64,000 nucleotides of DNA from Heliocidaris erythrogramma. Its lineage: Eukaryota; Echinodermata; Echinoidea; Camarodonta; Echinometridae. Positions 1,255 through 60,139 of the stretch are shown here, one piece after another (position 1 is the first letter of the stretch; the number at the start of each line of letters is the position of its first letter). The DNA lies in contig CM046856.1 of assembly GCA_025617745.1 (NCBI GenBank), positions 33,970,208 through 34,034,207 of the forward strand, read 5' to 3'. A program made the position numbers and the translations under genes. A model generated the notes under the pieces. It was not told the origin of the DNA. It worked only from the letters and a program-made list of their open reading frames with translations, and did not search any database.

Positions 1255-1945
1255 TCCGATTGAATATTTCCCCTAAGTCGTTATTGTCCGGGGGTAGTTC
1301 TCTGGGTGGTAGTTACCTTAGGTGGTAGTTGTCAAGGAGGTGTCCTACAGGGTGGTTGTCCTAGGGGGTAGTTGTCTGGGGGGGGGGGGGGTAGTTATCC
1401 GGGTGTAGTTGTCCTAGAGGGTGGTTGTCCTAGTTGTCCTAGGGGTAGTTGTCTGGGGGTAGTTGTCCTAGGGGTAGTTGTCTGGGGGGTAGTTGTCTGG
1501 GGGTAGTTGTCCAGGGAGTAGTTGTCCTGGGGCAGTTATCCAGAGGGTATAGTTGTCTGGGGTAGTTGTCCAGAGGGTAGTTGTCTGGGGGTAGTTGTCC
1601 AGGGGGTAGTTGTCCTGGGGGTAGTTATCCAGAGGGTAGTTTTCTGGGGGTAGTTGTCTGGGGTAGTTGTCCAGAGGGTAGTTATCTGGGGGGTAGTTGT
1701 CCCAGGGGGTAGTTGTCCAGGGGGAAGTTGTCGGGGGGTAGTTGTCTGGGGGGTAGTTGTCCAGGGGGTAGTTGTCTGGGGGTAGTTATCCAGAGGGTAG
1801 TTTTCTGGGGTAGTTGTCTGGGGTAGTTGTCCAGAGGGTAGTTATCTGGGGGGTAGTTGTCCAGGGGGGGTAGTTGTCCAGGGGGTAGTTGTCTGGGGGT
1901 AGTTGTCCTAGGGGGTAGTTTGTCCGGGGGTAGTTTTCCTACACT
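1255..1945. repeat. 15-bp minisatellite GGGGGTAGTTGTCC(n)
   Basis: Degenerate tandem repeats of a roughly 15-bp unit (GGGGGTAGTTGTCCT/A and variants with GTCTGG). The same unit forms the arms of the fold-back element at 49001-51400, where the left arm carries its complement GGACAACTACCCCC. Proline- or glycine-rich open frames across it are artefacts of the repeat. Confidence 0.95.
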
Positions 1946-2183
1946 CTTAGAACAGGTGGTAAAAAAACATGTGGTTAAACAGTTGTGGTAAGAATATGTG
2001 TCAAAATGTACACATATCTGTGTAGAAGCATGAAACAAGGGTACACAGCATGCGAGTTAAACGTTTACACCACCGCGGTAAAAAGAAACCCCATTCTGGT
2101 CAAACTTCGTCCACATGTCAAAATGTTACCCATTTGTGGTAATCATCAACACACTTGGACACGATGACAAGAGAGAGGGTAGT

Positions 2184-2627
2184 AAAATATACAGCTCCTC
2201 ATTGTACCCTCCACAATAGACCTGTTTACTAAGTGATTCAAATTTTATGCATACTTTTGAAACAAAGGTTGTTCTTGACAACCTGAAAGCTTGCCAGAGG
2301 CTTGTCAGACATAGCAACAAGTAATGTATGCAAACTGGATTCCAAGTATTGTAGTTCATTCATTAATAACAGGCTAATGGAATACCTCGTTACTAGGTCC
2401 CCAGGAAAGAAACATCCATAAATTTGGAATCACTTAGTAAACAGGTCTATTGTTGGTCTATATGGTAGAAGAACATCCCTTCATTGCTATAATGTAAATA
2501 AGTAGAACCGTGAATATGCATGTGACACCTGTTCTACATTTTTGTACATAATAGCATTAGCAATGAAGGGATGTTCTTTGTCTACCAGAACCAGTGTGGA
2601 AGGTACAATGAGGAGCTGTATATTTTG
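2184..2627. repeat. Nested multi-hairpin inverted repeat element
   Basis: An outer inverted pair of about 30 bp (2185-2214 and 2596-2626; core ATACAGCTCCTCATTGTACC) encloses two further inverted pairs: 2214-2246 with 2424-2452 (AATAGACCTGTTTACTAAG) and 2466-2492 with 2553-2580 (GAACATCCCTTCATTGC). Folded, this gives a three-way branched structure. A copy lies at 37793-38234. Confidence 0.8.
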
Positions 2628-2661
2628 TCCGCTTCTTTGTTTGACATGTTCATAGTTCTAG

Positions 2662-4121
2662 CAAAGAGTTTAAATACGAAGAGTGCTCAGTGCCGAAATA
2701 AAGCACGCGTATATATTGTGGTACATGTCGATCGGCCCAGAGGAAAGGTTATAGTCTTAATCAAGGTGTTTTTTATTTTTTCCTTCTTTTTCTGGACAGC
2801 GCTTTTGCCGTTTGGTAAAGCTAAACTAAAGGGCATAATCTTGATATTGTCCCTTGAAATACAAACTTATGTCCTAAAACAGATAGGAATCAACTCTAAC
2901 TGCACCAGGGAGGAGACTGAGAGGGAGAGAGTTGGGAGGGGGGGGGGGGGGGGGGGCGCTCGGACTAGATGTTTGTTTTTTTGTTAAAGTTATTTGCTAT
3001 GAAATTTCTATTAATATTTATGTGATGATGGGGGGGGGGGGTCAAAACATGTTCCCTGATATTAAGCTCTATAGCAAGCACTGCGATATTTGACGGGAAT
3101 GTCGAGAGAAGTTATTTAAAAATAATAATGTGCTATCTTTATTTTTCTATTAAATCAGAATATTTCATTTGATATGATTTATGGAAGTTATGGGGATTAC
3201 AGACCTGCAATGTAATTTTATTAGCCTTATTCTTTTTAAATTCAAGACAGAAAAAGGCTTTAATTAAATGAGATTGTGCGCGAGCAATTCCTTATATAAA
3301 TGTAAAGATTACATTAAGAGTGGCGTATCCAAGATTATCCAAGAATGTACATGCCCCTATGTGCCAGCAAAACAAAATATGACATAATATGAAAGGAAAT
3401 GTGTACCCCCCCCCCCCCCCCCCGCACAGAAAGAATATAACCAACCAATATAACCAACTTATGGTAAGTTATTTGTAATATTCCGCTGGTAGAAAATATG
3501 AGACGACGGGCGAAGAAAACAGTAAAGGGGCTTGCTCCGAAGCCATCACCAACGCAATAGGGCTTTACCGATTGTACGAAAAGGGGGATGGCCTCCGTGT
3601 TTTGAATTGAATTAACTAGTAACCAACAATATAGCAGCTGATGACATAATTTATTTATTACCAGTCCTATTTTGTATTTGTAGAATATCCCATTACTTTT
3701 GCCCCATCTCTCTTTGTCTCCCCCCTCATTTTTCTCATACTCTCTTTTCTCTCTTACAACAGATCTGTAAAAAATGACTCCAATAGAATTGAGGAAAAAT
3801 AATGATCTCTTATTTTTTTAATTTGTGTTTTTATTTTATAGGAAATCAACAAAAAATCACCAACAATTACAAGTGATTTACATGATTAAAAACAAAATCA
3901 CTGAGCAAAAAAAAAAAAAAAAAAAAAAAAAACACCCAACAAAAACAAAATAAAGCAGCTGGAACAAAATTTTAAAAAAAACTGGAGTAATAATATCTGA
4001 TACCCTACACCCCTCCTTTGACAGCCCTGCATCAATTTTGTGCCCCCACCCTACTACATCCCGCATTCGCCCTTGTCATAGAATGTCAGTGTCAGACTCA
4101 TATCCATAACAGGGTTCAGAA

Positions 4122-4160
<39 letters not shown>

Positions 4161-4650
4161 ACACACACCCCCCCACTACCCTGCCGGTCTCTCGGTACCA
4201 AGGACAACCAAACAACGACACAGCAAGCAAAAAAAACCTGAATGAGCCAAGTTTTGGCAAACTGACATATCATCGGCAAAGCCACGGCAACGCCACCACC
4301 TTTATCGGGATCGCAGAGGGGTAGACCAAGCCTAGATAGTGCTAGACACCTATCATGTCCATGCACCTATTCCGCTCGGCTATTCCATGCTGCTTGCATG
4401 AACATCAGCCATTAGGCTAGGCGTAATGCGGTGATAGAACATTGATTATACGAATTTATGAATTTAACACATTGAATTTTGCCTCTGGTACATTAGAAAT
4501 ATAGTAGTGAACTGGAATTTAGTTAGATTTTCTTCTAAACGGCTAGGCTGGGTTTGCTTTCGGGCGGACGTACGTCTGCTACATGGTCGTCTGCTAGTGC
4601 ACGATCTAATTGGATGTCGTCACTCACGTGATCGGTACACGCCCATTTAC
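2662..4650. other. Gene-free stretch with long homopolymers
   Basis: No coding exon is supported. It holds G runs near 2940-2956 and 3031-3040, C runs at 3407-3423 and 4124-4160, and an A run at 3909-3932. Confidence 0.6.
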
Positions 4651-5609
4651 ATTAGGTCATCGATAACAAATTTGAAGGCACGTGTTGTAGTATGGCAAAT
4701 TATTTTTTTTGGTCGAAAGCATGCATATTCCCGGGGATTTGTGCGGGTTTATTGGACTCACCGAGCCTCAATTATACCCTTCATAGCTTTAAATTTCATG
4801 TAAATCACATTTTTCATAATTTCAAATAAATACTAGGGGAATTAAAATCATTTCAAAACCCCTGTTTTTACGTGTTAACCAATGGGAGCTGGAAGCCAAA
4901 AGCATGCATATTCCGGGGATTTATGGGGGGTTTATTGGACTCATCGATCCTCAATTATACCCTTTCAGGGCTTTAAATTTCATGTAAATCACATTTTTCA
5001 TAATTTCAAATAAATACTAGGGGAATTAAAATCATTTCAAAACCCCCGTTTTTCATGTGTTAGCCTATGGGAGCTGGAAGGCCAAAAGCATGCATATTCC
5101 CGGGGATTTATGGGGGGTTTACTGGACTCACCAAGCCTTCATTATACCTTATTAGAGCTTCAAATTTCATGCAAATCACATTTTTTACTTTTCAAAGAAA
5201 AAATTATGGGAATTATAACCACCCTAAAATTCTTGTTTTTGCGTGTTAACCTATGGCAGGCGAGACGTTTTTGGTCAAAAGCATGCATATTCCCGGGATT
5301 TATGGGCGGTTTACTGAACTCATCAAGCCTTAATTATACCTTTTCAGAGCTTTAAATTTTATGTAAATCACGTTTTTTTATATTTTCAAATAAAAATTAT
5401 GGGAATTATAATCATCCTAAAATTCCTTGTTTTCGCGTGTAAACCTATGGCAGGAGAGACTTTTTTTGGGTAAAAAAGCATGCATATTCCCGGGGATTTA
5501 TGCGGGGTCTATTCAACTAGTTGAGTCTTAATTATACATTTTCAGAGCTTTAAATTTTATTCAAGGGCACCATTTTTCAAAATTTTGATTTAATTCTGCG
5601 GGGAATTAT
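4650..5609. repeat. Tandem array, unit about 183-197 bp, running into an assembly gap
   Basis: The motif AAAGCATGCATATTCC recurs at about 4717, 4900, 5086, 5279 and 5476, each followed by CGGGGATTTATG, a GGACTCA(C/T)C stretch and an AT-rich tail. At least five units are present. The array ends only because unknown bases start, so its true length is not known. Confidence 0.9.
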
Positions 5610-6109
5610 NNNNNNNNNNNNNNNNNNNNNNNNNNNNNNNNNNNNNNNNNNNNNNNNNNNNNNNNNNNNNNNNNNNNNNNNNNNNNNNNNNNNNNNNNNN
5701 NNNNNNNNNNNNNNNNNNNNNNNNNNNNNNNNNNNNNNNNNNNNNNNNNNNNNNNNNNNNNNNNNNNNNNNNNNNNNNNNNNNNNNNNNNNNNNNNNNNN
5801 NNNNNNNNNNNNNNNNNNNNNNNNNNNNNNNNNNNNNNNNNNNNNNNNNNNNNNNNNNNNNNNNNNNNNNNNNNNNNNNNNNNNNNNNNNNNNNNNNNNN
5901 NNNNNNNNNNNNNNNNNNNNNNNNNNNNNNNNNNNNNNNNNNNNNNNNNNNNNNNNNNNNNNNNNNNNNNNNNNNNNNNNNNNNNNNNNNNNNNNNNNNN
6001 NNNNNNNNNNNNNNNNNNNNNNNNNNNNNNNNNNNNNNNNNNNNNNNNNNNNNNNNNNNNNNNNNNNNNNNNNNNNNNNNNNNNNNNNNNNNNNNNNNNN
6101 NNNNNNNNN
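5610..6109. other. Assembly gap (500 N)
   Basis: Exactly 500 unknown bases, a conventional placeholder length, directly after a tandem array. The open frame spanning it has no meaning. Confidence 0.99.
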
Positions 6110-6987
6110 TTAATACGCACTGTATAGGTTCGGAATTTAGTCGTCTCTTTATGGTGCGATCAGAAAGGAAACGACTTTACTGCAAATCTGATTTTGTTTT
6201 TTTAATTACCAAAAGAAATGTGTGTTTTTGCCCTGTAGTACCCTTTCAGCGTTTCTTTCCTCGGTCTTCTCTTTTTTCATTTATCTTTCTTTATTGTTCT
6301 TTTCATTTGTCTATATTTTTACCTGACACTTCTGAAAGGCTTTTTACGGACTTATTACGTTTTATTCATGCACAATGATAATTAGGCCACCTTAATTTAT
6401 ATTTTAAAAGAAGAAGAAGTTTCTGCGTTGGTACAATACCTTTGTTGTATCACTTAAAGTGGAGGATTAGATTGAAAATTCAAATGCGACAAGTTGCAAT
6501 TTTTTTGGCTCCAGCTTATGTAGGTCGATATTTTTATAACCTGCAGAACGGTTAATGTGGCAGACAACATCCGAGAGAAAAAAAGGTTCTCATGGCCTGC
6601 TTGCCCGTGAGCAACCATCCACGACTTTGTTTGCATTTTTCTTAAACGAATGAACAATGTGTGGAGTATCTTACCTACATAAAAACTGACGTAAACGACA
6701 GAAAATGATAACTATAAAAGCTCAAAGTAAATAAGAAATGTCTTATCGATGACATTTTTGGAAATCAAGTTGAGTTTTAGAGAGTCATAGTGCAAAAAAG
6801 TCGCTAGATCTGGTTACATATTTAATGCAGTGATTAGCTCCAATGAATTGACTTCATGCAGTATGTTTGAATAATTATTGTGAGAAATGAAAATGAGAGA
6901 ATAATGGTTGCGTAGCTTAAGTTCCCAAGAGTTGTCCTTCCTTTTCAAATGTTATTTCCTTACACGTGTATACACAGGTATATATAT

Positions 6988-7020
<33 letters not shown>

Positions 7021-8636
7021 GGAATCAAGCTTATGACGTTTTTTCTGGATTTAGAGCATGTCGTCTCGAGCATTCATTTCAGGGAGAATCAATTGTGGCT
7101 ATGACTGTTGTAAAATGATGAGACGTGAGACGTGGTAAAAGTGGAGACATTGATCAAATAGGTAATATGCTCAATTGTCATCCCATGTTATCTCAAGTGC
7201 AACTCTTGCATGTTAATCAATCGCTTTCTACAGTTAATCAACCAAGGCTCAAGCCATTCCGAGAATACCACCACGTTGCATGAATACCAATGCCTTTCGA
7301 GCCGTCTCGCAAGACTTGATTGATAAGTCACATTTCTCTTAAAAGCTATCCGTAAAGAGTCTCTGAATCACCAATATCACATTTATTCATGCGAGACATA
7401 ATGGAGGAACAGTGTATATCGGATCTAACGCAACTGCTCATAATCATTTTCTTCAAAGTTTCCATATATTTAGCAAAATATCACCAACATGGCCAAGTAG
7501 TTTTTTTTTTCTCGATTTTTCGATACTTATAAGAATTGGACGCTTCGAAATGGTTCACAACTATAGATTTGACGCCCAACCCTTCGAGGATGTTAACCTT
7601 AGAATAATAATGTTTGCTCTGTCCCACCAGATATACCTTGCTACTTTACTCTTATTATTATCACCTGAGGCAAAAAAATGTCCTTTCCTTCGTGAGACTA
7701 CAGGACGTCACTCTGTATATGTTAACTCTCTATTATGCAAGAACTCGATATTTTTGGAATCACCAGGCTTCTGATCGTTATCCATTACGGATACAGTGGT
7801 TCTTTGTTTTTCCATGCACGAGAGTAGCACGCCAGTTATATTACTTCTTACGATTATATGTTGAAACTGAGAAATAGACATTTCATGAAAAATAAGTACG
7901 ATTATTGCAACATTCAGACTTGTATATAGCCTCGCTATACAATCGTATCCTGAAAATGATTATAAAGGCTTGTTGGGGGCTTTTGATTTTCTTATAATTG
8001 GCTGAAATTTATACTGTCTCCCCGAAAAGTGCTCAAGCGAGCAATATTGTTGTCTGAAGTTCTTGTGACACTTAGGTGTTCCTTGAAAGAGCAGACTGCA
8101 CTTTGCAACTCCTGCTATGACTTGAAATATATGAAGCTGACTTTTCGAGTTTTATATTGAGAATCTGTCTCATAGACACATGGTTTCCAGAGCTTTATCA
8201 GTTATATCGCTTACTTGCAGGAAGGCATGAAGAAATATATATATTTGTGTTACAATTAATTATAAACATAGAAAATAACATCTCTCATTAACAAATAATA
8301 ATTAGAAGTTCCTTCAGTCACATAAAAGTATGAAAGCGTCTCATAAAACTTGTAAACAGCCGTATAATTCACGAATTGCTTGTGAAATTGAATATTTATT
8401 TTCCTTCGGAGTATCGTAAGAATTTGATATATCTCATACAAGTTGATACTCAGTGTAGTTATTCTTGCTTTGTGGCTAAAGGTATACCTCATAACTGGTC
8501 ATGATTATTGTATTGATGGAAGCGTATTTCACCCCACTGAGTATATTTGATGAAATGTCATAACCTAATACATGTATTCACTACTTAGTGAAGCATACGT
8601 TTCTTATGTGCATATCCGTAAATGTGTACCAACAGA
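6110..8636. other. AT-rich gene-free stretch
   Basis: Nothing coding is supported. It contains an AT dinucleotide microsatellite at about 6978-7020. Confidence 0.5.
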
Positions 8637-21215: not shown

Positions 21216-22005
21216 GTAGCGCGGATGAGCTCATATTAACTGCAGACGACAGTGCTGTATCAAACTCGGAAATACAAGAATCGCTCTTCCTCCCTCCGGG
21301 TACATCGTCAGACGTGACGTCATCAGACATATTGGGGTTGGCACAAGAAGACAACTCGGACCTTTTAAAGTAGGTTTTAACTTTTATGCTTGAAAATGGT
21401 GAGATTGTACACCCTAAATGGTTTATTCATACGAACAAATTTAAAATAAGAGAGTGTCGACGTTTACGTAGCTAAAGAAGAGATAAGAAGTTTTAAGAAA
21501 ACATAGGCTAATATCGGTTAATAATTTTTATACAGTTTCCATTGCTCTTAATAAATATCTCTTTAGCTGAGAGAGGAGAATGATATCCCCTGAAAAAGGG
21601 TCATGCTATCCATTTCCAAAAATTTGTAGTTGCTGAGATATCTCAAACCAATTAAATCATCCCTGTTTTCGTCTACATCATTCTTATAACCAATATGTGA
21701 TTGGTTTTCCTTCCATAGTTCCATTTACCCTTTATTGATATTTTTTTAGTGTTGAAGACGACTTGGACAAACTGTTATCAGTGAGCACGAAACTTAAACC
21801 AGCCCTCTCGCCTAAACCAAATCAATCTGCATCCAAACCACCCTTAAAGCCGAGACCCTCCGGATCTGCGCCCAAGTCGAGCAAGCAGCAATCGCCGTTG
21901 GGGGCGCTAGACGAGTCAGAGTCAGATCAGATGGCGGAAGATGATATCTTAAAATACATTCGGGAGAACTGCGAAGGTGGGGATGCCAAATTGGATCTTT
22001 TCTGA
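21216..22005 (+). CDS. 3' end of an unrecognised gene (last two coding exons)
   Basis: Two exons are supported: 21216-21369 (acceptor ACCACAG, donor GTAGGT) and 21750-22005 (acceptor TTTTTTTAG, stop TGA at 22003). The first ends with two bases of a codon and the second supplies the third, so the frame joins cleanly as SDLLN-VEDDLDKLLSVS. The product end is acidic and Ser/Pro/Lys-rich, with a low-complexity stretch (KPALSPKP, SASKPPLKPRP), and finishes with a compact acidic C-terminus containing DDILKYIREN and the tail KLDLF. I do not recognise the family. The LDLF tail resembles a short clathrin- or adaptor-binding peptide, but that is only a resemblance. Upstream exons were not found with confidence. 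The last roughly 90 bases of exon 2 and the 3' flank recur, broken, near 45210. Confidence 0.6.
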
Positions 22006-23014
22006 AACGACTGGTATTTAGAAAATGCCAAAACATACTCCTACTTAATCTGTGTTTCACCCTCACCCCTCCTCTTTCTCCCTCGCTCTTTTTTATTTCT
22101 TCTTTTTATTTCTCATTCTCTCTCATCTCACTCCTCACTGATGATTAATGTAAATGTATTTCGAATATCGGGGAAAAATAATTCGTCTCAATTATTTTAA
22201 GAAAGACAGAGAGATCACGTTTATACATGTCAAAATATAAACATTACTACACAGTTTAAACATTAATACTTATTTCAGTGTTTCTTCTTGTAAGCTCCCG
22301 CGTTGAAATTGAAAAGAATGTTTAAATAATTTGTAATTTCTTTGATATAGTCATTACTTACTGTATATAAAGGCCTCCATTTCACTGCTACAAATGTCAT
22401 AATTATGTATGTCGATTCATATCTTACAAATGCACGAGAAATTGTGGCTTATATGAAATATGCAGTGATTGATGAGTACATGTATATAGCATACAACATT
22501 ATGATTATTCAGTGGTATGCTTCGGTACATTTTTATATCTAAATGGCAATGCAACCTGTACATCAAGCTGCTTTGAAGGACAAGAGAACACTCAGAGACA
22601 AATATTGAAAGTGGATAAATAAGAAAAAACTTATGATTTGTAATCAGTGTTATTTTTGTGGGGGGGGGGGGTATTTTATTTAATTTTTTTTATTTTTTAT
22701 TTTTTTTAAATTTGGGTATAGCATATTTTGAGTAAAGCCCCGAGGGAAAAGATGCTTGAAAGAAAACTGGAAAACCATGATATTTTAGTGTACAGCAAAT
22801 GGGAGAGTGGTCCCCAATGCGTCACAAATTGGATGACAATTTTGCCCGTAATTGAGATTCACGCGTGCCTTTGGTGTTTTCAACTTTCGATCGGACATTT
22901 ATGACTTATCACATGTCTGATTGCACCACCCTGTTTTGCTTTGTTGGGATTTTTTTTTTCTGCGCTCAAACAAATCAACTTGTTAGAAAGGTTAGATGAC
23001 TCTTTAACTGATAA
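21915..23014. repeat. Duplicated block B (first copy)
   Basis: Matches 45210-48770 in the same orientation once the insertions in the second copy (45409-47650 and 48118-48292) are removed. It carries the last bases of the gene exon and its 3' flank. It is interrupted on the right by the Helitron at 23015. Confidence 0.85.
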
Positions 23015-23580
23015 TCTATATAAAGAAGTCTGTGGTGATAGGCCTAAATAGGATATAAAATACCAAGCAAGATATAAAAGCTATTAAAAGATATTAATGG
23101 TATGAAAATTAAAGATAGAGGGGTCTGCCCCTACTTCAATCTGCTTTTCAATTCAGCAAGTGATTTATGAGGAAACACCCCCCGGGGGGAGGGGGGGGGG
23201 GTGGTCGTCGCGATCGACTCGGATCGATTCATGAACCCGTAAACCTTTCTGCCTTTTATTTGTGAAAATTCGGCTCCTTTGGAAGTTTGATTTATGTAAG
23301 CATTCCATTACTTTCTAAATTGAACTCTCAACAGGTTTTATTTTGATCTATTTATTTTTTATTTATTTATTTACTTATTCATTTTTTTTTGGGGGGGGGG
23401 TGAAGGGCAGGAACATATAACTGTTAAATGTAAAAAAAAAAAAATGGGAGAGGGTTTCGGCCATTTCATATTTTAAGACTCTTTAAAATCTATTAAATTT
23501 ATTTCTACTTTTTACTTTTTATCATAGAAGCATATACTAGGGTAAACTTCCTTTTGCAACAGCCACCCAACATGAAAACA

Positions 23581-23620
23581 ATGTATAGGGTTAGGGTTGG
23601 GGTTAGGGTTTAGGGTTTAC
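23581..23620. repeat. Short interstitial telomere-like repeat
   Basis: About five imperfect TTAGGG units (TAGGGTTAGGGTTGGGGTTA and following), within the Helitron. Too short and degenerate for a real telomere. Confidence 0.7.
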
Positions 23621-24732
23621 ATAACCGCACATTTGGACGGCTGTCGCATAAGTCAACAACAACTAACTTGACATGAAAGGGAAAATGGCCCTCATACCGT
23701 TGGAAACATGTTATTGTATATCGCCTCATATATATTATTCATTACCTTATGACAGACTAAACCGAGATGTAGACATCATTCGGGGAGGGGAGGTGTAGCA
23801 GATCACGTCACTTAGGAATATCTGTTGCCACGGTGTAAAGAAGGAGACCCCCCCCCCCCCCCCCACCAAAATTTCCTTCAAAAATATTTCCACAATGATA
23901 TGAATACGTATAAGATATTACTCCCGTCTCCCCTGGCGCTGGGGGTGACGGGAGGCCGATAGAAGGGGGGGGGGGGGCAGTAGAGAAAAGTCAATCCATC
24001 GGTCCTCCCAAGACCCATATAAGGGGGCAATAATCCCCCTGAAAAAGAAATGACAATAAATTCATTTTTTCTCATTTTTGTATCCGTCACATGATGCATG
24101 TTATGTTTTCATGGTTCGGTGTAAAAATGCCAGAGGTAAAAATGCCAGAGGTAAAATTGCCAGTGGTAAAAATGCCAGAGGTAAAAATGCCAGTGGTAAA
24201 AATGCCAGAGGAAAAAATGCCAGTGGTAAAAATGCCAGAGGAAAAAATGCCAGAGGTAAAAATGCCAGAGGAAAAAATGCCAGTGGTAAAAATGCCAGAG
24301 GAAAAAATGCCAGAGGTAAAAATGCCAGAGGAAAAAATGCCAGAGGAAAAAATGCCAGAGGTAAAAATGAGGAAATTTGAGCTAAGATTGAGTAAATTGT
24401 GTGATTTTTTATTCTTGTACATAGGCCACATGGGTGGAAATCCTGAGGACGGGGGCGTGTCCTTTCTAAGCTTTGGGAAGCAAAATGTTAAAATATGTTT
24501 GCCCCTCCTCGAAACTATTAATTGTGGAGGACGGGAGGCACAACTTTTTTTTTCGCCAGACCTCCAAAATTTGCTCGGGGGGGGGGGGGTCCACTTTCCC
24601 TCCATTATTCTCTGACAAGCAAACAAAAAAGGGGGCACGGGCCGGAAGTGCCCCCGGATCCGCCAATGGTGACCTATACGCAACTTCAATTCTATTTTCT
24701 GTAGGCCTATTTACTCGCTTTATTAGCTGCAG

Positions 24733-24921
24733 AGTGGACTTACTCAAGGATCATGTAGTTTCAATAGATTCCCCCGATTACACTCTCCTTGATGTGTCCC
24801 CAAATAATAACGAAAGCGAGAAAACATTGAATAAAGAACTGGACACATCGTCTAAACATATTTACGCAAGTTGGCCTCAAATCACCGTAGGTCTTCTTAA
24901 ACAAAATGCAGTCATAGGTAG
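24733..24921 (+). CDS. Exon-like segment inside the fold-back/Helitron (captured gene piece?)
   Basis: An acceptor (TTAGCTGCAG) is followed by an open stretch reading VDLLKDHVVSIDSPDYTLLD, then SKHIYASWPQITVGLLKQ, and a donor at either ATAG/GTAGGT (24917) or GTAG/GTCTTT (24921). The composition looks like ordinary coding sequence, unlike the homopolymer-driven frames around it. With the second donor the frame joins to the segment at 25575 through AG+C. No family is recognised. Position inside a Helitron suggests capture from a host gene, since Helitrons are known to pick up exons with their splice sites. Confidence 0.4.
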
Positions 24922-25574
24922 GTCTTTTTAGTTTCCTACTTTTTATGATGTGGACAAAGGATACTTGTTTTTTTTTTGTTTTTTTAATGAGTTTTCTGTC
25001 GTATCATGTGTGCACTTAATGTCAAATCCCCGAATTTGTTATGAGTACCCCCCCCCCCCCCCCCAACCCGGATATAGCATGCATGTATTGTTTGCCACTC
25101 CCTTTCAGTTGACGACCCTTTTTGTTAAACACTTCAATATTATATTTTTTTCACTTTTAATTCAATTTGAATATTTTGTTTATATAAACTGAATGTGCAT
25201 GAGCCCCCCCCCCCCCCCCCCCCGTATTAATGTTGACGAGGCTGTAATGCTCGATGTTTGTGTGATGGCCTGTACATTTGCTGAAGAAGGGAGAACTGAA
25301 AAAGGAAAAAAAAGTGCAGGGACAATTACAGATAACGAAAAGCAAACTAGTCAAGATCAGTTGGTACAAGTTATTTTACTACAGGTACAGGTATTGTGTC
25401 CTTCAGTTTCGTATTTCCGAAACACTAATTTCCCATGCCTGGGGGTTCAAAATTCCGAACATTTGTTGCATTATTCCGAAGGTTCGTTTATCCAAAGGTT
25501 CATAATTCCGAAAAAGGTTCATATTTGCCCACAAAAGGACTGTCCCACATTAGGGTGATGTCATTTTTGCATAG

Positions 25575-25683
25575 CTGGGTCTACGATCTGGAGGCCAGAG
25601 TCCAACAGTTCGACAAGAAAAACGCGGTCAAACCAAATAGTCTAAAAAGTAAAATACAAGCAGATGTCAGGTCTGCTTCTTGA
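25575..25683 (+). CDS. Exon-like segment with stop, inside the fold-back/Helitron
   Basis: After an acceptor TTTTTGCATAG the frame reads (S)WVYDLEARVQQFDKK, then NAVKPNSLKSKIQADVRSAS, and stops at 25681-25683. It could be the last exon following 24733-24921. The segment is short and unrecognised; the start of a coiled coil (DLEARVQQFDKK) is possible. Confidence 0.35.
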
Positions 25684-26102
25684 CCTTCTTTAAAATTTCA
25701 CCTCTTGATTTTTCACCTATATTCTCCTAGTATGCAGGTGGCATATTTTGCCTCTTTATTTTTTGTTCCTGACATCACCCATCGCGTGTTTATCTCCATG
25801 CCATTTTACCTCTGGCATTTTTACCTCTGGCATTTTTACGTCTGGCATTTTTTCCTCTGGCATTTTTACCTCTGGCATTTTTTCCTCTGGCATTTTTACC
25901 TCTGGCATTTTTTCATCTGGCATTTTTACCTCTGGCATTTTTACCTCTGACATTTTTTCCTCTGGCATTTTTTCCTCTGGCATTTTTTCCTCTGGCATTT
26001 TTACCTGGCACCGTTTTCATGGCCTTAATTTCTCTTGAGTATTAAAGCACAGAAACATGACAAAATCAAATTGCTCCCTCTAGCTGTATGCAGGGATATA
26101 CT

Positions 26103-26339
26103 CACTGGCGTAGGCGGGGGGCACAGGGGGCCATGGCCCCTCCTATTCAGCAACTATAAAAAGCATTCCGGACGTTGAAATAACTTTCCTCCCCCTAAAA
26201 AAAGTGCTACGAGGCAAATTTTCTATAAAACGTCAGAGCTTTCGCGTTTCGCCCCGGGAAAACTTCCCCCTTCCTGCACCCACCCCCTTGGGACCGTCTG
26301 CCCCCCCCCCCCTATTGAAAAATCCTGGCTACGCCTGTG
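26103..26339. mobile_element. hAT-type MITE, 237 bp, with 8-bp target duplication
   Basis: The ends CACTGGCGTAGGC and GGCTACGCCTGTG are inverted repeats. The flanks GATATACT at 26095-26102 and 26340-26347 are identical 8-mers, the length hAT transposases produce. Internal C/G runs are present. Related fragments occur at 16060-16450. Confidence 0.8.
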
Positions 26340-27774
26340 GATATACTATATCCAGAATCCCGCCCTGGTGTACATGAGATCGTGTGTCATCCACAGACCA
26401 CAGGGCCGACGTAACATAAATAAAATCAATATTAAGTCATTCATAAAGTAAAAATGTGTTTTCTTCAGAACTCATCTAAGATTTGAATAAATAACACATA
26501 TTAATATGTTGTAAATACTTTTTGGTAAAAAAAACACAAACATTTTACCCGACTTTTCTTTTTATTCACTCGATTATTGTGACAAATATACGCTACGATG
26601 ATTAATCATAAACACAGCTAGCGCCCGTGGATGTCCACGGGCTGCTTCTGCTAGTAATTTTATAATTCAGCATGAATGGTATAATCCAAACAGCGTTGGT
26701 TATATTGATTACATTCTGACGGGGGGGGGGGGGGACTTAGAAATTTTGAGGTCTCTAACTCTCCCTCTCCCTCATTGACTGATCACTGCCCCCCCCCCCT
26801 TCCCCTAGTTTGCAGACACAAATCCCTTGTCAGTTGTCAGTCCAAACACTAACGGAGTGTCAGAACTGTAAGACTTCAATAGGCCAGGTACATGGCATGG
26901 TCCTGACACAACCAGTAGGAACGTGGGTTAGGCTTCTCTCAAGACAATGATTTTCTAATATAGTGTGTCCAATTAGGGTCTGTACTTGCAGACTGTCCCC
27001 CTCCATCACCAACCTTTTTTTCCAAATGCAATAATGATTAAACACCATGTTTGACTATTTCCATGTACATGTAACTATTCAACATCTGTGCTCTAACACA
27101 TAAACCCAAAATTATTAGATGCATTTCCATAAAAATGTAAGCTCCCTGTTGAATTAAAAATTTTGACCTAACGCTGGTCAGTTTAAAGTGGAAGTTTAGC
27201 AGATGAAGTTATACTGAAGTATTCATGTGTTTCACACGACTTACCGTCCTCGTGTCGGGTTTTCCTGAATTAGATCTATACGGGCCTGGGAGTTTTCTTT
27301 GTCACTGTCCCAAGAATTATGCACCAAACATGTTTATGGATATGTACTACATGTAGTTATAATTAGTCTTTCAAAGAGCTAGAGAAATAAAGGTGTGCAC
27401 TTTTTGCCGATATTTTGTATAATGTGGGGTGCTAGTGGAATAAGAATTGTTTTCTCCATATATCATGTTAGCAAAATTACTGTACTATTAAAAGATGACA
27501 ATTTATCGTGAATAAAGTGTTTTAATACAGATATTGTTTGGTGTTGTGTTCAGTTTGTTTCTAAAATTGTATTTCTTTTATTAATTTATATTTTTGTTCA
27601 GTTATTCATTCTGTATATTTTTGGAGGGGTGTGGAGAGTCTAGTAAGGACCAGTGGCGCTATGAACCAAAAGTTTTGAGGAGACAGCAAGAATTTAATTT
27701 TTCTAAAGCGTCCCACTTCTTTGTTCTGTTTTTATAGCCCCGATATAATATAAAAAGGTACACTGTAATTTCTG

Positions 27775-28000
27775 GGTCCGATCGCTATTCATAAGGACCG
27801 CAATTCATAGAAAACCGCTATTCATTTAACACGCGTTATGAATAGCAGTCCTTATGAATAGTGGTCTTTATGAAGGGAGGTCCTTATGAATAGCGAGGTA
27901 ATTTGTCTATGGTTGCTCGCTATTCATACAAAACTGCTATTCATTTAGTCACACGTTATGGATAGCAGTCCTTATGACTAGCGAGGTTACCTTGTAATTT
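27775..28000. repeat. Multiple short palindromes CTATTCATAAGGACC / GGTCCTTATGAATAG
   Basis: At least six alternating direct and inverted copies of a GCTATTCATAAGGAC-type word occur within 220 bp. The same arrangement, diverged, is at 52610-52810 in block C'. Nearby TATAACGAGGTTCCACT motifs resemble pogo/Tigger MITE ends. Confidence 0.7.
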
Positions 28001-28126
28001 CACTGGTCCCAAGGAGTTTGTTATAACGAGGTTCCACTCTATAATCGCATGACCAGAATCAACTTACCTTTAAATCCCCGACCACCCTCTTTCTCTCCCA
28101 CTCTACCTCCTCAGTCTTCCTCTTAA

Positions 28127-28756
28127 CCCTAAAAGGGCCGGGGTGGAATCCTCAGCCTCCCCGACGTTTCTCGCAATATGTCCGCAACGCGCAAAGCAGT
28201 CGCCGCGGCATTTCATGGCTTTCTTTCAAATCTCACACAACTTCGCGATGTCCGGGCATGGGCTTCCGAAGTTACGCAACATTTCGTACTTGCACGTCAG
28301 ACCAAAAATTGCTCAAAAACGTGATTGCATGTATAATTTCAATACAAAATGTGTTTTCAGCCAAGATTTAAAAATATATGAATATTTTTGCATTTGCTGA
28401 TTAAAATTAATTTATTTTCTGCTGTTTACGTTCGCGAAAGTGTCCCTGACAAATTTCATCCAAACAACAATAACAAAAGGTAAAACAAAGAAATACATAA
28501 ATTTAAAATACATTTTTTTGAAGTATATTTGCTAAGAATACTGGAGTGTCTAGACCAAAAATTAGCATATTTTGAGCTTTAATGATTGAGCAAAATTTTG
28601 ATTTCATGCATAAATTTGCATAATTAATGTGATCTTTTTGGAGCATTTAACTATACAGTTTCGTAGATTACGTTGTGGACGACGTGCGTGCCGATTTTCG
28701 GTCGACGGTCGAAATCTCGGCTGTGGCATAGCCAAAATATCCCGGCCCTTTTAGGG
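28127..28756. mobile_element. piggyBac-type MITE, 630 bp, TTAA target
   Basis: The ends CCCTAAAAGGGCCGG and CCGGCCCTTTTAGGG are exact inverted repeats, bounded by TTAA at 28123-28126 and 28757-28760. The interior is a reverse-complement relative of the element at 28995-29557. It is absent from block C', which has unrelated sequence there. The 28143-28400 open frame inside is not considered a gene. Confidence 0.85.
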
Positions 28757-28797
28757 TTAAAAAATCATCTCGTTCCTTTCTGATACATGTAGATGTA

Positions 28798-28969
28798 CAG
28801 TGGAAACTTGCTACAAAGAGCTCTGATAGGAGATTCCAGATATAACGAGGTAGTTTTGCTGGTCCCAGGTCTATATATTTTTGTTTTTTACCCTGATATA
28901 AGGAGATTCCCGATATAACGCGGTAATTTTCATGGTCCCAAGATCCTCGTTATTAGTGAGTTTCCACTG
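28798..28969. mobile_element. pogo/Tigger-type MITE, 172 bp, TA target
   Basis: Begins CAGTGGAAACTTGCTA and ends GTGAGTTTCCACTG, flanked by TA on both sides (28796-28797 and 28970-28971). The interior words GATATAACG and TGGTCCCAAG recur in other such fragments in the window. Confidence 0.8.
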
Positions 28970-28994
28970 TATTACGCGCCCACATTCCGCTTAA

Positions 28995-29557
28995 CCCTAA
29001 AGATTTTGCCTATGCCACAGCCGGGGGGAGGGGGGGTGGGGCGAAAATCAGCACGCATGTCGTTAACGTAATCTACAAAACTGAGTAGTTAAGTGCTCCG
29101 AAATAATTTCATATTAATTATGCTAATTTATTCTTAGCAAATATACTGCAAAAAAATTTGGTATTAAAATTAATTTTATTGTATTTAAAATTTATTTGTT
29201 TTTACTTTTGTTTTTTGGATGAAATTTGTCAGGGACATTTTTGGGATCATAAAATTAATAAGCTGATTAAAATAATTTTAATCAGCAAATGTAAAAATAT
29301 TCATAGATTTCTAAATTTTGGCTGAAAACACGTATTGAAATCGAACATGAAATCACGTTTTTGAGCAATTTTTTGTCTGACGTGCAAGTACGAAATGTTG
29401 ATTAACTTCGGACCCGCACCCCCGGACATTGCAAATTTGGTCTCAAAAGATGCGCGAGATTCGAAAGAAAAACATCATGAAGCACAGATGCGACTGCTTT
29501 GCGGACATATCACGAGAAGCGTCTGGGGGGAATATTCCACCCCCGCCCCTTTTAGGG
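28995..29557. mobile_element. piggyBac-type MITE, 563 bp, TTAA target
   Basis: TTAA at 28991-28994 and 29558-29561 bounds ends CCCTAAAG and CCCCTTTTAGGG. It is inverted relative to its neighbour at 28127-28756. The counterpart in block C' is 53188-53734. Confidence 0.8.
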
Positions 29558-29922
29558 TTAAATGCACGCAAATGGAAACCATTTTCCAGAGACAATAGTA
29601 GACATACCTTGTTACAGTCAATATCCAACACTAGCCAAAGTGAGAACTTCAACCCTCGGAGGGCTGTATGCACCCACGTTTGTAACCCCTATGGAGAAAT
29701 TTGCCCTAGGCATTTTTGTCCTTAAGTCCCCATACTTTCCATTAGCACCAAGGGCGTTTCATACAGTCATCTCTCTTGATAATCATAATTCCTTCGCATT
29801 CCTTTTCCACCAATACACACACATGCATTCAATTCACTTTCTCAAACATCCTTTCCAAAAAATTTTTTTACTGCCATTCCTCCCCTCCCCCCACCCCCAA
29901 CCCCCCCCCCCTATTTTTTATA

Positions 29923-30026
29923 CAGTGGAAACTCGCTATAAAGAGCTTTGATATAACAAGTTTCCTGATAAGAACACGGTAGTTTCCCCATGGTCCCAAG
30001 GTCCTTGTTACAGGAAGTGTCCACTA
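29923..30026. mobile_element. pogo/Tigger-type MITE fragment, about 104 bp
   Basis: Begins CAGTGGAAACTCGCTATA after TA and ends near GTGTCCACTA before TA. It contains TGATATAAC and ATGGTCCCAAGGTCC. A decayed counterpart is at about 54105-54236. Confidence 0.6.
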
Positions 30027-30799
30027 TAGTCGGAAACACAAGCCCATTAGCCACCCTATCACAAAATCATTTTCCAAATCGATCACCCACAAGTTATTTT
30101 TATGGAATATTTATTTCCAAGGCATGCACTTGTTTTCCATTTACATACAAATAGAATATTAACTAAGAATTTTTTTAGTTGAGCAAATATTAAGTAACCA
30201 TTTAGTCCATACATACCTTACTTGAGTGCACATATAATTGCAATGATCACTTGCACTGAACTATTGTCAGATATGGGTTTTTTTTCCATCTCAAATACAA
30301 CACACATGTAAATTAATCTCAAGCATGCATTGCCACCCAGCATGAAGTTAAAACAACCCTCACCTTTTGAGGTTTAAACTAAACTTGGTGCAGCACACAT
30401 TGTGTGATAAGCTCTTTTTTACACGCAAGTTCAATTACAGATATTCAATAAACAGAAATGTCCCCTCCATATTTTTAATTCATCTTTTATGGGATATACA
30501 TGTCCAAAGCACTGTGGAGCATTAATTTTCTATGTATTTCTTTTTTTTTCTCTCAACATATTTGATGTAACAGTCTATCTTGAATTAACTTGATAAAAAG
30601 GTGCTGCTTATATAAGAGCAAACACTTTCTTCCTATGTTATCTGTCGTGGAGGAAGAATCTGTTAAAGTTGGATATTCTCTGAGTTTTCATTTTTTCGAG
30701 AAGCATATGCAAACGAAGGCTTGCAGTGATTCCTTTGAGGTCATTAGTGTGGGGAAGTAGGAGTGGGTACATGTTGCAGCCTTGGGATGCATAATGCCA

Positions 30800-31159
30800 T
30801 CATTTCTTCTCTTGAGCCTTCTGGGCAGACTTGGTAGTCTTGCCACCAGTTGCGTCTGCCTTGTCCACAGACTTCACCACACCAACGGCGACAGTCTGCC
30901 TCATGTCACGGACAGCGAAGCGTCCAAGAGGGGGAAATTCCGAGAAAGTCTCGACACACATCGATTTAGAGGGAATCAGTGTGGTGATGCAGGCATCACC
31001 ATTCTTCACGAACTTGGGATTCTCCTCCAGAATCTTGCCTGATCGACGATCCAGCTTCTCATGGAGTTCCGCAAACTTGCAGGCAATGTGAGCAGTGTGA
31101 CAATCCAAAACTGGGCTGTAGCCGGGATGAATCTGACCAGGGTGGTTCATGATAATGAC
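30800..31159 (-). pseudogene. Duplicate of the EF1A terminal coding exon (domain 3) without exons 1-4
   Basis: This open segment encodes 119 residues plus stop and aligns end to end with EF1A exon 5 at 55518-55159. The acceptor, with its pyrimidine tract and GCAG, is kept at the same place, and the flanking intron and 3' region are also duplicated. About nine residues differ from the intact copy, including HAGY to HPGY, GKTL to GKIL, LPSKP to IPSKS and the end AQKKK to AQEKK. None is a stop. Exons 1-4 are not found between here and the next duplicated block; the homology ends at a LINE tail at 32398. The likely reading is a truncated duplicate under relaxed constraint, or an allelic fragment placed in tandem by the assembly. 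Because EF1A introns are phase 0 and this exon is on the same strand downstream, use as an alternative last exon is formally possible but unlikely. Confidence 0.85.
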
Positions 31160-31271
31160 CTGCATTAAGAAAATAAAATCAAGGAGAATCATCAGATGTG
31201 CATTGCCATTCTACTTAACTGCACTCTGGTTTTCAGGGTTTTTGAACACTAAAGGTTATTTTTGTGTTCGT

Positions 31272-31736
31272 GCAAACACCCAAAGGGATTGAATGACAAG
31301 TGTCAATTTAAGATAACAATTAAGCCCATCAAAAGGATCAATAGTTTGACTGCTGTTGAATATATGCAGTTCCTTTCATATTTCTTATTTCATTTTCACT
31401 TTTTTTTCCCTGTACCCACAAAATGTCAAAAATATTAAAATCTTGGGGTTGGGCAGGTCCCCTGGCAAAAGAGTTTGTGTGAAGCCCTGTAATAGCCTTA
31501 ATTTTTTTTCACATTTGAATTTTTGGAATGTCTCTTTTTTAGACACTTATGTTTTTCTTATAATTCAATTTTTTCATTGAATGTCCGTGAACACTTTGGG
31601 GTCCTTATTTTCATCATATGGTGTGCTAATAATGCATGTCACATTCTTTTTGGCGAAAAAATGATTTTTGTGTGGAAAATCTGATTTTTTAAGGCAACCA
31701 GTCTGTATTTTGTGTTGAGAGGTTGGCATCTCTGAC
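31272..31736. other. Segment of about 465 bp present only in the first copy of block C
   Basis: In block C' the flanks are joined directly (CAAACACCCTTGTTCATTTTG near 55633). A few bases (CCC) are shared at the junction, which suits a deletion in C' by microhomology. No terminal repeats are seen. Confidence 0.6.
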
Positions 31737-32398
31737 CCTTGTTCATTTTGTGTCATGATCGTTATCCCTCAATGTATTGGGGTATTTTGAGCTCCTCTCT
31801 GACTGTGACCCACTCCCACCCCCACCCCATCTCTGCCACATGTCACATCACCGCAAACTTTAGCACAGACCTAAAGCATTGCATATAGAACACAAATCAA
31901 TCATTTCTTGTAAATCTGAAATTTCTTTTATAATTCATGCAAATTATATGCATTCGCATACATTTTCATTGATAATCGAGTAAAGAAAGTTCTCGGCGAT
32001 GATGTTTTATGCAAGTAGTTCTTCATAAACCTCAAAAACATTAACAGAAAAGTAAATTAAAATTGATCTGCAACTCTTCCGAAATCTATTGTTTTATCAA
32101 TTTCTATGTTATCTGAACTGTAAAATTAGTAAGAACAATTGATTAGACTAAAGAGGAAATTTTGATTTAGGAAGGAAAAGCAGTTTTCCATTCCTATTGT
32201 ACACAAGACTTTGCCGCATTTTCAGGCTGACACAAGGTCACATAACTCTGCAACAGAACAACCAATTTTTATAAACTTCGTAGATGACATGGAGCAGTTC
32301 GTTATACAGGGGAAACTCGATATACCGAGGTCGGCTATAACGAGCACATTGTCGCAGTCCCAAATTTACTTGTGTGTAATTCTATGGTGGCACAAATA

Positions 32399-35738: not shown

Positions 35739-37019
35739 CCCCCCCCCCCTCCCTCACGCACTCTACAATTTTGCAACTCGTTACAAAGCTACCACCCAAT
35801 CGAGTCTTAAAGGAAATCAGCATTGTGGTTGGTCGATTAAAAAAAAAAATAGTATGGTGTGTACAGTCATGTTAAGATGGGTGTGAAAGCAACCGAGAAC
35901 ACAATGTTCGGAAATATATCCCTTTTCACCATAGGGTTTATTTATGAATACGAGCATAAATGACTTTTGAAACATTTATTCCATGAAAGATGCCATCATA
36001 ATCACGGGGAGTAATTAGATCTTCACACTTTTAACACACTTAAGATTATCATGAGCCAAAAAATGTTGACACGCTCATTTCATTGGCATTTGGGGCAGGG
36101 GACACTGTGCCCCCTATTTTGGGGAAAAAACAATGGTTACAAGTTCTGGCAAATTTCTCGGAATTAATGCCTTTTTGTATGTTTCACTTTCTGTGTATTA
36201 TTTCAGTAACTATTATTACAGAGGAACCAAAAGACATATTTGTTGGTATTGTAATGATCTTGGACTGTTCCAACGCGCATACAGCAGTTTTAATTGATTA
36301 TGCGCTATACATGTGAGAGTTATTGTTTTGGGGACCATAGATTCTGTTTGAATTTTTCTCGAAGACCGTTGTAGATTGTTATTTTATGTTCGCCTTTTCA
36401 GCAGGAAACAACGCAAGATATTGGATTTATTATTCATGAAAATGCATAGGCCTATTAGTTAAATACTCACCAAACCCTTGGTTATAACTCCCTAATTTCC
36501 AGAAGATCTTATTTTGGGAGAGAAACCTCATACCTTTCTCAGTTGGTTTAATATTGAATATGTCATAGAAATTCACAGAACACTACCTTTGAAAAAAAAA
36601 TCCCAGATGGAAAAATTCAAACAGTACAATGCACCATCAAACACCGAGTTCAAACACCCAACTTTTAAAACAAAAATGTAATACCATGGGAACCCCCCCC
36701 CCCCCCCCCCCCCCCCTGTGCTCAAGGGTATAGACACATTCAACTGCAATCATATCATTTTTTACGTGCTGTGGTGAGATTTAACATTATGATGCCGTGG
36801 GAGGTTAGATACCCCCTCCTCCTGATACTCATTATATCCTTACCGATTGTTGGTCACCCCCCCCCCCCCCTCCACATCCTCCTTTGGCCGAAATCAGTTT
36901 ACATGCCATCAAGTATCTGGGAGTTGTGCCTGTTTGGGAAGTGGGGGGGGGGGGTAGTTGACCTACATGCCATGGATGAAAGTATGTTGGTTGTTGTCCG
37001 ATTGAATATTTCCCCTAAG

Positions 37020-37545
37020 TCGTTATTGTCCGGGGGTAGTTCTCTGGGTGGTAGTTACCTTAGGTGGTAGTTGTCAAGGAGGTGTCCTACAGGGTGGTTG
37101 TCCTAGGGGGTAGTTGTCTGGGGGGGGGGGTAGTTATCCGGGTGTAGTTGTCCTAGAGGGTGGTTGTCCTAGTTGTCCTAGGGGTAGTTGTCTGGGGGTA
37201 GTTGTCCTAGGGGTAGTTGTCTGGGGGGTAGTTGTCTGGGGGTAGTTGTCCAGGGGTAGTTGTCCTGGGGCAGTTATCCAGAGGGTATAGTTGTCTGGGG
37301 TAGTTGTCCAGAGGGTAGTTGTCTGGGGGGTAGTTGTCTGGGGTAGTTGTCCAGAGGGTAGTTATCTGGGGGGTAGTTGTCCCAGGGGGTAGTTGTCCAG
37401 GGGGAAGTTGTCCGGGGGGTAGTTGTCTGGGGGGTAGTTGTCCTGGGGGTAGTTGTCCTGGGGGTAGTTGTCCTAGGGGTAGTTGTCCTAGGGGGTAGTT
37501 GTCTGGGGGTAGTTGTCCTAGGGGGTAGTTGTCCGGGGGTAGTTT
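37020..37545. repeat. 15-bp minisatellite, second copy (shorter)
   Basis: Same GGGGGTAGTTGTCC array as at 1255-1945, in the same orientation, about 160 bp shorter. The flanks are otherwise almost unchanged, so unit number has changed since the copies separated. Confidence 0.95.
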
Positions 37546-37792
37546 TCCTACACTCTTAGAACAGGTGGTAAAAAAACATGTGGTTAAACAGTTGTGGTAA
37601 GAATATGTGTCAAAATGTACACATATCTGTGTAGAAGCATGAAACAAGGGTACACAGCATGCGAGTTAAACGTTTACACCACCGCGGTAAAAAGAAACCC
37701 CATTCTGGTCAAACTTCGTCCACATGTCAAAATGTTACCCCATTTGTGGTAATCATCAACACACTTGGACACGATGACAAAAGAGAGTGGGT

Positions 37793-38234
37793 AAAATATA
37801 CAGCTCCTCATTGTACCCTCCACAATAGACCTGTTTACTAAGTGATTCAAATTTTATGCATACTTTTGAAACAAAGGTTGTTCTTGACAACCTGAAAGCT
37901 TGCCAGAGGCTTGTCAGACATAGCAACAAGTAATGTATGCAAACTGGATTCCAAGTATTGTAGTTCATTCATAATAACAGGTTAATGGAATACCTCGTTA
38001 CTAGGTCCCCAGGAAAGAAACATCCATAAATTTGAATCACTTAGTAAACAGGTCTATTGTTGGTCTATATGGTAGAAGAACATCCCTTCATTGCTATAAT
38101 GTAAAATAAGTAGAACCGTGAATATGCATGTGACACCTGTTCTACATTTTTGTACATAATAGCATTAGCAATGAAGGGATGTTCTTTGTCTACCAGAACC
38201 AGTGTGGAAGGTACAATGAGGAGCTGTATATTTT
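37793..38234. repeat. Nested multi-hairpin inverted repeat element, second copy
   Basis: Same three nested inverted pairs as at 2184-2627, part of block A'. Confidence 0.8.
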
Positions 38235-38269
38235 GTCCGCTTCTTTGTTTGACATGTTCATAGTTCTAG

Positions 38270-47400: not shown

Positions 47401-48117
47401 ATATCACTGTGATGATAGTCATCACCATTATCATGATTATCTTGCACAAATATTATCACATCTTCCAATTGCCGTTTCAGACATTTTTCTAAATTCCTGT
47501 CCTCAAGAAGCATCTCCATGCGTGGCATTCTTGACTTCCCATCTTCAGTTTAGTATTTCCCCATTATTATGATCATCCTGATTACAATCATGATCATACA
47601 AATTGAAAGACAGACCACCTAATTCGTCCTCATGACGAATTAAATTCTAGTTTTTATTTCATCTTATTTCTCATTCTCTCTCATCTCACTCCCCACTAAT
47701 GATGTATTATGAATATAGGGGGAAAATAATTCGTCTCAATTATTTTAAGAAAGACAGAGAGATCACGTTTATACATGTATCCGAGTCAAAATATAAACAT
47801 TACTACAAAGTTTAAACATTAATTATTTCAGTGTTTCTTCTTGTAAGCTCCCGCGTTATTGAAATGGATGTTTACATAATTTGTAATTTCTTTGATACAG
47901 TCATTACTTACTTTATATAAAGGCCTACATTTCACTGCTACAAATGCCATAATTATGTATGTCGATTCATATCTTACAAAGAGATTGCAAATGCACGAGA
48001 AATGGCTTATAAGCCTTATATGAATTATGCAGTGATTGATGAGTACATGTATATAGCATACAACATTATGAATATTCAGTGGTATGCTTCGGTACATTTT
48101 TTATATTTAAATGGCAA

Positions 48118-48292
48118 CAAGGCCGTACGCAGCGGGGGGCAGGGGGGGGGGGGCAGTTGCCCCCCCCCCCAAGAAATTTCAAAATCATACTTTTTTTTAA
48201 TCGGGTTTTAGACTTCAAGTTATGGGTTCCTTTCTTGCGATCATCTTGCCCCCCCCCCCCCCCCCAGGAAAAAATTTCTGCGTACGGCTTTG
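48118..48292. mobile_element. hAT-type MITE, 175 bp, with 8-bp target duplication and empty site
   Basis: The ends CAAGGCCGTACGCAG and CTGCGTACGGCTTTG are 15-bp inverted repeats with one mismatch. AATGGCAA lies at 48110-48117 and 48293-48300. The duplicated block at 22542-22549 has a single AATGGCAA and no element, so this inserted after the copies diverged. It contains two C runs and a G run. Confidence 0.92.
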
Positions 48293-49000
48293 AATGGCAA
48301 TGCAACCTGTACAGCAAGCTGCTTTGAAGGAAAAGAGAAAAGAGAAAAAGAGACAAATACTGAAAGTGGATAAATAAGGAAAAAAAACTTATGAATTGTA
48401 ATCAGCGTTATTTTTGTGGGGGGATGGGGGTATTTTATTTTGGTTTTTTTATATTTTTTGTATTTTTGGGGGGTATAACATATTGAGTAAAGTCCCGAGG
48501 GAAAAGATGCTTGAAAGAAAACTGGAAAACCATGATATTTTAGTGTACAGCAAATGGGAGAGTTGTCCCCCAATGCGTCACAAATTGGATGACCATTTTG
48601 CCCGTAAATGAGATTCACGCTTGCCTTTGGTGTTTTCAACTTTCGTTCAGACATTCATGACTTATCATTTGTCTGATTGCACCACCCTGTTTTGCTTTGC
48701 TGGGATTTTTTTCTGCTTTCAAAACAAATAAACTTGTTAGAAGGGTTCGATGACTCTAACTGATAACAATTTTATAATTCATCATGAATGGTGTAAACAG
48801 CGTTGGTCATATTGAGTTCTTTCCGGACAGGGGGGGGGGGGGGGGGGACTTAAAAAGTTTGAGGTCTCTAACTCTCCCTCTCCCCCCCCCCCCCCCCCCC
48901 TTCCCCCAATTCATTCTTAGTCGCTTAAAGAAACAAGAGCCCCAGGGGGCACGACGCTCACCTCAGGTGGATCAAATCACATCTGGTGCATGTTCTCTCT

Positions 49001-51400: not shown

Positions 51401-51409
51401 GTTCTCTCT

Positions 51410-55158: not shown

Positions 55159-60139
<4,981 letters not shown>

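Follow-up and report, generated by a model that had tools for sequence, protein, structure and literature searches.

The window analysed here is a 64,000-bp stretch of the Heliocidaris erythrogramma genome (C4:33970208-34034207; genome of 1.06 Gb in 26 contigs), and positions given without a contig refer to it; loci fetched from elsewhere in the genome carry L numbers. The window holds a Helitron at 23015-26654 and, within the Helitron limits, a fold-back element with inverted minisatellite arms at 24121-24369 and 25804-26006, as a preliminary description of this DNA had stated. That description took the Helitron for a vehicle carrying the fold-back, a miniature inverted-repeat transposable element (MITE) and possibly captured host exons. 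The features are as follows.

23015-26654, plus strand: non-autonomous Helitron with later insertions inside (TC start, hairpin and CTAG end, copies of its 3′ 34-mer, empty site)
23015-23022, plus strand: TCTATATA, the sole remnant of the Helitron family 5′ end, fused by deletion to an internal position (matches to the family 5′ end)
24105-24112, plus strand: left copy of the fold-back target site duplication (GTTTTCAT)
24113-26012, plus strand: non-autonomous fold-back transposon, very probably a deletion derivative of an element with FLYWCH and Mutator-like element (MULE) domains (absent from L024, ends shared with other copies, maps on an 8.7-kb element in four pieces)
24121-24369, plus strand: fold-back left arm, 16.6 tandem 15-bp units
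24734-24919, plus strand: exon-like open segment 1, part of the fold-back family middle, with no evidence of coding constraint
25576-25683, plus strand: exon-like open segment 2, likewise part of the fold-back family middle, with no evidence of coding constraint
25804-26006, minus strand: fold-back right arm, 13.5 tandem 15-bp units, inverted
26013-26020, plus strand: right copy of the fold-back target site duplication (GTTTTCAT)
26103-26339, no strand assigned: MITE-like element with imperfect inverted ends CACTGGCGTAGGC and CACAGGCGTAGCC and direct repeats GATATACT at 26095-26102 and 26340-26347
26620-26654, plus strand: Helitron 3′ hairpin and CTAG (DNA fold, family 3′ end)
48766-48767, plus strand: unoccupied Helitron site in a second block (match to the joined flanks, with the junction there)

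Non-autonomous Helitrons start with TC, end in a hairpin followed by CTAG, and insert between A and T without duplicating the target. The element at 23015-26654 is a genuine Helitron, and the ends and A/T target proposed for it held up: the 5′ terminus TCTATATAAAG supplies the TC at 23015, the GC-rich hairpin at 26620-26654 folds as DNA at -12.3 kcal/mol (shuffle mean -4.61; 0 of 200 shuffles equally good), and CTAG occupies 26651-26654. Its 34-bp 3′ end has 1,015 exact copies in the genome, compared with none for the reversed control. The 3′ end lay within the fetched stretch in four of the six relatives L003-L008, and all four (L004-L007) match through CTAG and have T as the next base. When the two 200-bp flanks were joined, 283 of 324 aligned columns were identical to window 48571-48884. 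The element is flanked by A before TC and T after CTAG, and the comparison with the empty site shows no target duplication. The unoccupied site claimed earlier was thus seen at 48766/48767, but it is not letter-exact: GATAA/CAATTTT stands there against GATAA-Helitron-TAATTTT, the C for T at the junction being consistent with the 12-13% divergence between the blocks. The Rep/helicase domain Helitron_like_N (PF14214) has 103 matches genome-wide and none at the window, and the Helitron copy is therefore non-autonomous, with possible autonomous partners among those matches. The open frames containing these domains are very long, reaching 4,199 codons.

The family 5′ end is more extensive than the copy in the window suggests. 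Of 40 copies scored for the first 301 bp, 38 begin to align no earlier than position 4, including 20 that do so at position 4-5, because the relatives continue upstream. The family 5′ end reads (A)TCTATATATATATTACGCTAAGG... and recurs at 336 places within two mismatches (control 0), so that both ends proved to be repeated in the genome. The window Helitron keeps just the terminal 8 bases of it, TCTATATA, joined to AAGAAGTC, and the sequence of about 560-890 bp that separates the 5′ end from the resumption point in L003-L008 is missing. Its 5′ terminus is therefore genuine, with a deletion behind the first 8 bases. The fused form (at most two mismatches) is found at two genome places only, the window and its duplicate at C4:33888041. 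Compared with typical non-autonomous Helitrons, this copy retains very little of the family 5′ region and contains later insertions. Upstream of the Helitron match, L005 and L007 contain tandem Helitrons in which the CTAG end abuts the TATATATAT start of the next copy.

The duplicate at C4:33888041 (L002, L024), 105 kb upstream, has the same flanks and the same Helitron, with 95.2% identity over 22001-24114 and 93.2% over 26013-27582. This sister Helitron has no counterpart of 24113-26012: the sequence passes directly from 24114 to the right-hand side, with a single GTTTTCATGG. In the window, the same stretch is flanked by 8-bp duplications of GTTTTCAT. As the sister Helitron lacks the fold-back and holds its target once, the fold-back arrived by its own transposition and the idea of the Helitron as its vehicle fails; no further Helitron containing a fold-back was found among the fetched copies L002-L008. 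The third constituent, the MITE-like element at 26103-26339, is present with its 8-bp direct repeats, and its earlier label of hAT type would follow from those repeats.

The window as a whole is built of duplicated blocks of 81-97% identity by piece, 1-2661 pairing with 35739-38269 and parts of 22090-32396 with 47651-56340. With another copy of its 22-28 kb part lying 105 kb upstream (L024), it forms a local segmental duplication cluster. Satellite-like repeats at 37026-37550, 49006-49800 and 50596-51397 recur in widely separated parts of the window, in both direct and inverted order.

The fold-back has long inverted ends of short tandem repeats around a variable middle, and it belongs to a large family. 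One 24-bp end has 332 exact copies in the genome (reversed control 0). We surveyed ends and duplications in 27 rows, comprising the window, an 8.7-kb element and 25 loci (L022 omitted); both ends are visible in 20, and 14 of these have a perfect 8-bp target duplication, within the 8-10 bp of Phantom-type MULEs. The two ends differ from each other outside the repeats (GGTTCGGTGT versus GGTGCCAGGT). L011 and L014, each with a duplication matching at 6/8 positions, have identical flanks and represent one insertion that was itself duplicated. In L037 and the 8.7-kb element, two of the 20 two-ended copies, the middle has the opposite orientation to the ends, an outcome that recombination between the inverted arms would produce.

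The 8.7-kb element (C4:41048538-41057250; L044 and L027) has both arms, of 18 and 20 units by script count. Its 290-amino-acid frame contains FLYWCH (E 5.2e-10) and MULE (E 1.6e-8) domains, both above the Pfam cut-offs, so that the two domains of a Phantom-type MULE source lie between ends of the fold-back family. A PDB search with the same frame gave one weak FLYWCH match (E 0.083). When the genome was searched with the 76-amino-acid catalytic part, four places were found at E up to 1e-6: the element itself at 100% and three other MULE lineages at 47-48% identity in this segment (C15:21071428, C21:12782200 and C15:42154). The 8.7-kb element is the only copy of the fold-back family in which this search found the catalytic segment. 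Two longer copies, L023 and L033, encode a FLYWCH zinc finger on the minus strand (E 9.7e-11 and 6.6e-10) followed by transposase-like sequence, which in L033 matches the 8.7-kb element in its transposase region at about 93%. Aligned to this element (27 rows, the window and 26 loci), the window fold-back retains positions 321-476, 7593-7843, 7937-8107 and 8203-8405, and has no transposase, neither FLYWCH nor MULE domain. Deletions of other types are seen in the other 26 loci, none of which has the stretch 547-6444. On this alignment, the window fold-back is very probably a deletion derivative of a Phantom-like Mutator element with FLYWCH and MULE domains.

The two exon-like segments lie inside the fold-back and hence are not the Helitron's own. 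The observation that each is open in one frame stands: 24733-24921 is open solely in the frame of 24734, within a 153-codon stop-free run at 24470-24931, and for 25575-25683 the open frame is that of 25576; what does not stand is the assignment of these segments to the Helitron. The segment 1 peptide gave 123 genome match rows, which include row pairs for single places, and we examined the 27 places that were fetched (the window, L011, L012, L014-L023, L026-L037, L039 and L041). All 27 belong to the fold-back family, 26 showing one or more arrays of the 15-bp unit and L022 a family deletion junction, and no host parent gene for segment 1 was found among them. With the rows merged to 29 places in the part of the genome for which the list of ends is complete (C1-C5 and the first 16.8 Mb of C6), an exact fold-back end lies within 2.5 kb at 20, where about 0.16% per place would be expected by chance. 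Two candidates for a parent gene were rejected. L022 is exon-like and armless, but it jumps from 713 to 7471 on the 8.7-kb element, as do L026 and L030. The 271-amino-acid frame at C1:45347753 belongs to a fold-back copy with arms and the target duplication GTCAGTGG; this frame is lengthened by the fold-back arm, and adjoining frames look reverse-transcriptase-like by eye.

Substitutions were counted in rows covering at least 80% of the query (25, 20 and 18 for the three open segments, 16 for a non-coding control, and 11 and 10 for the transposase pieces), and the changes follow the pattern expected without constraint. For segment 1 (25 rows), we counted 10 synonymous, 32 non-synonymous and 1 stop change against 11.0, 30.5 and 1.5 expected; the corresponding values are 6/23/2 against 7.5/22.1/1.4 for the open stretch 25237-25384, and 6/16/1 against 5.3/16.7/1.0 for segment 2. 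In L035, the nearest relative (97.4% identity over 1,433 bp), segment 1 is interrupted by a frameshift and by a stop. A Pfam search of the exon-like segments gave no family above the cut-off. Although the segment 1 peptide does recur, as the preliminary description had expected of captured host exons, capture from a host gene is not supported; the segments are probably the leftover middle of the fold-back, resembling pieces of a gene.

We found no description of this fold-back family in the open-access papers searched. Judged from the accessible part of its account, the closest described case is Tm1, a Mutator/Foldback family of root-knot nematodes (PMC3169594). Both families have composite inverted ends with a short tandem motif (about 14 bp in Tm1), asymmetric terminal motifs outside the inverted repeat, a Phantom-type transposase with FLYWCH and MULE domains, one copy bearing the transposase beside many derivatives, and some recombined copies without target duplication (PMC3169594). 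In contrast to Tm1, the unit here is 15 bp and of other sequence, the target duplication is 8 bp rather than most commonly 9 bp, and the ends number in the hundreds rather than at low copy (PMC3169594). Most fold-backs seem to be members of Mutator according to the accessible part of a second report, which also cites a sea urchin fold-back of 1983 (PMC4079207). The fold-back structure is common to the present element, Tetris and the Drosophila FB elements; Tetris was assigned to Mutator by its authors and has target duplications of 8-10 bp, but its arm units are of ~220 bp, and in that part of the report its authors found no transposase-bearing copy (PMC4079207). The Phantom group of animal MULEs is tabulated with target duplications of 8-10 bp, which the 8 bp here fit, and includes some members with FLYWCH; echinoderms are not among the Phantom hosts listed in the accessible part of that paper (PMC6446971). 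The likeness of the present element to this group is one of domains and target duplication.

Taken together, these data very probably reflect two independent, nested transposon insertions, with the fold-back being a MULE derivative and the exon-like frames transposon leftovers. A non-autonomous Helitron would have inserted between A and T, presumably by rolling circle with a partner in trans. The block bearing it would then have been duplicated, giving the copy 105 kb upstream, and a non-autonomous fold-back would have inserted into the window copy alone, with duplication of 8 bp. The order Helitron, block duplication, fold-back is the simplest. The fold-back itself would have arisen by internal deletion of a Mutator-type transposon (FLYWCH and MULE, Phantom-like) ending in inverted arrays of the 15-bp unit, and the exon-like frames would be a remnant of its middle, from the part that lies between the start of the transposase and the right arm. 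Short copies of this kind were probably moved by cut-and-paste, with a transposase such as that of the 8.7-kb element acting in trans.

Several observations weigh against this interpretation. Six of the 20 two-ended copies have no perfect duplication (L029 matches at 7/8 positions and L028, like L011 and L014, at 6/8, the 8-mer of L020 is displaced by 5 bp, and the 8.7-kb element has none), and the perfect duplication of L030, counted among the 14, consists of a run of A. No exact fold-back end lies within 2.5 kb at nine of the 29 exon-like places, namely L035 (end changed by one base), the decayed L022, a weak match at C6:1630819 (E 0.004) and six that were not fetched. The transposase of the 8.7-kb element is split in two frames 1.8 kb apart, the second of which (219 amino acids) has no Pfam match, and the transposase-like piece after FLYWCH in L033 has no Pfam match of its own. 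The 8.7-kb element could itself be a product of recombination and not an active source, given its flipped middle and its lack of a target duplication. Finally, the neutrality count is low in power, since the transposase pieces in comparable copies were also near neutral (synonymous/non-synonymous/stop 11/25/1 against 9.3/26.5/1.2 expected, and 9/17/2 against 7.2/20.0/0.8) and apparent constraint was stronger in one wrong frame than in the true one.

Among the alternatives, the MULE ancestor of the fold-back could have captured host exons long ago, as an animal Pack-MULE, or have carried an additional plus-strand gene of its own, the segments being relics of either. The segments are indeed also present in the transposase-bearing 8.7-kb element, on the strand opposite to the transposase, and an altered segment 1 lies there in a 97-codon open frame; however, the Pfam result, the neutral pattern of change, the broken frame in L035 and the lack of a host parent among the places examined make this unlikely. 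Somewhat less likely still is that the fold-back predated the block duplication and was then precisely lost from the 33.888-Mb copy. The clean state of the sister site is what a precise excision would leave, but an extra exact event is required where insertion after the duplication accounts for the same facts; apart from such an excision, the nesting order is established. We reject, as very improbable, capture of two host exons by the Helitron with the fold-back carried as nested cargo, because, although Helitrons are known for gene capture and both segments are open in one frame within the Helitron limits, the sister Helitron, barring a precise excision from it, lacks the entire stretch with the target present once and all 27 places examined for segment 1 belong to the fold-back family.

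The nested insertions themselves are ordinary, with a readable history, and in place of a false lead, gene capture by a Helitron, there is now a dated history of nested insertions. What is gained is the link, within one genome, from a large fold-back family to a transposase-bearing member. The TU fold-backs of Strongylocentrotus purpuratus, dating from 1983, reportedly have tandem 15-bp repeats in long inverted ends, target duplications of 8 bp and a common middle prone to deletions, and no transposase is known to have been assigned to them; their likeness to the present fold-back is one of structure. It is possible, though we would put it at somewhat less than an even chance, that the present fold-back represents an echinoderm family of TU type and that TU elements are deletion derivatives of a Phantom-type MULE, moved here by what is now the remnant of a single source gene. 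If so, an orphan fold-back family known since 1983 would be tied to a transposase, a link testable in public echinoderm genomes.

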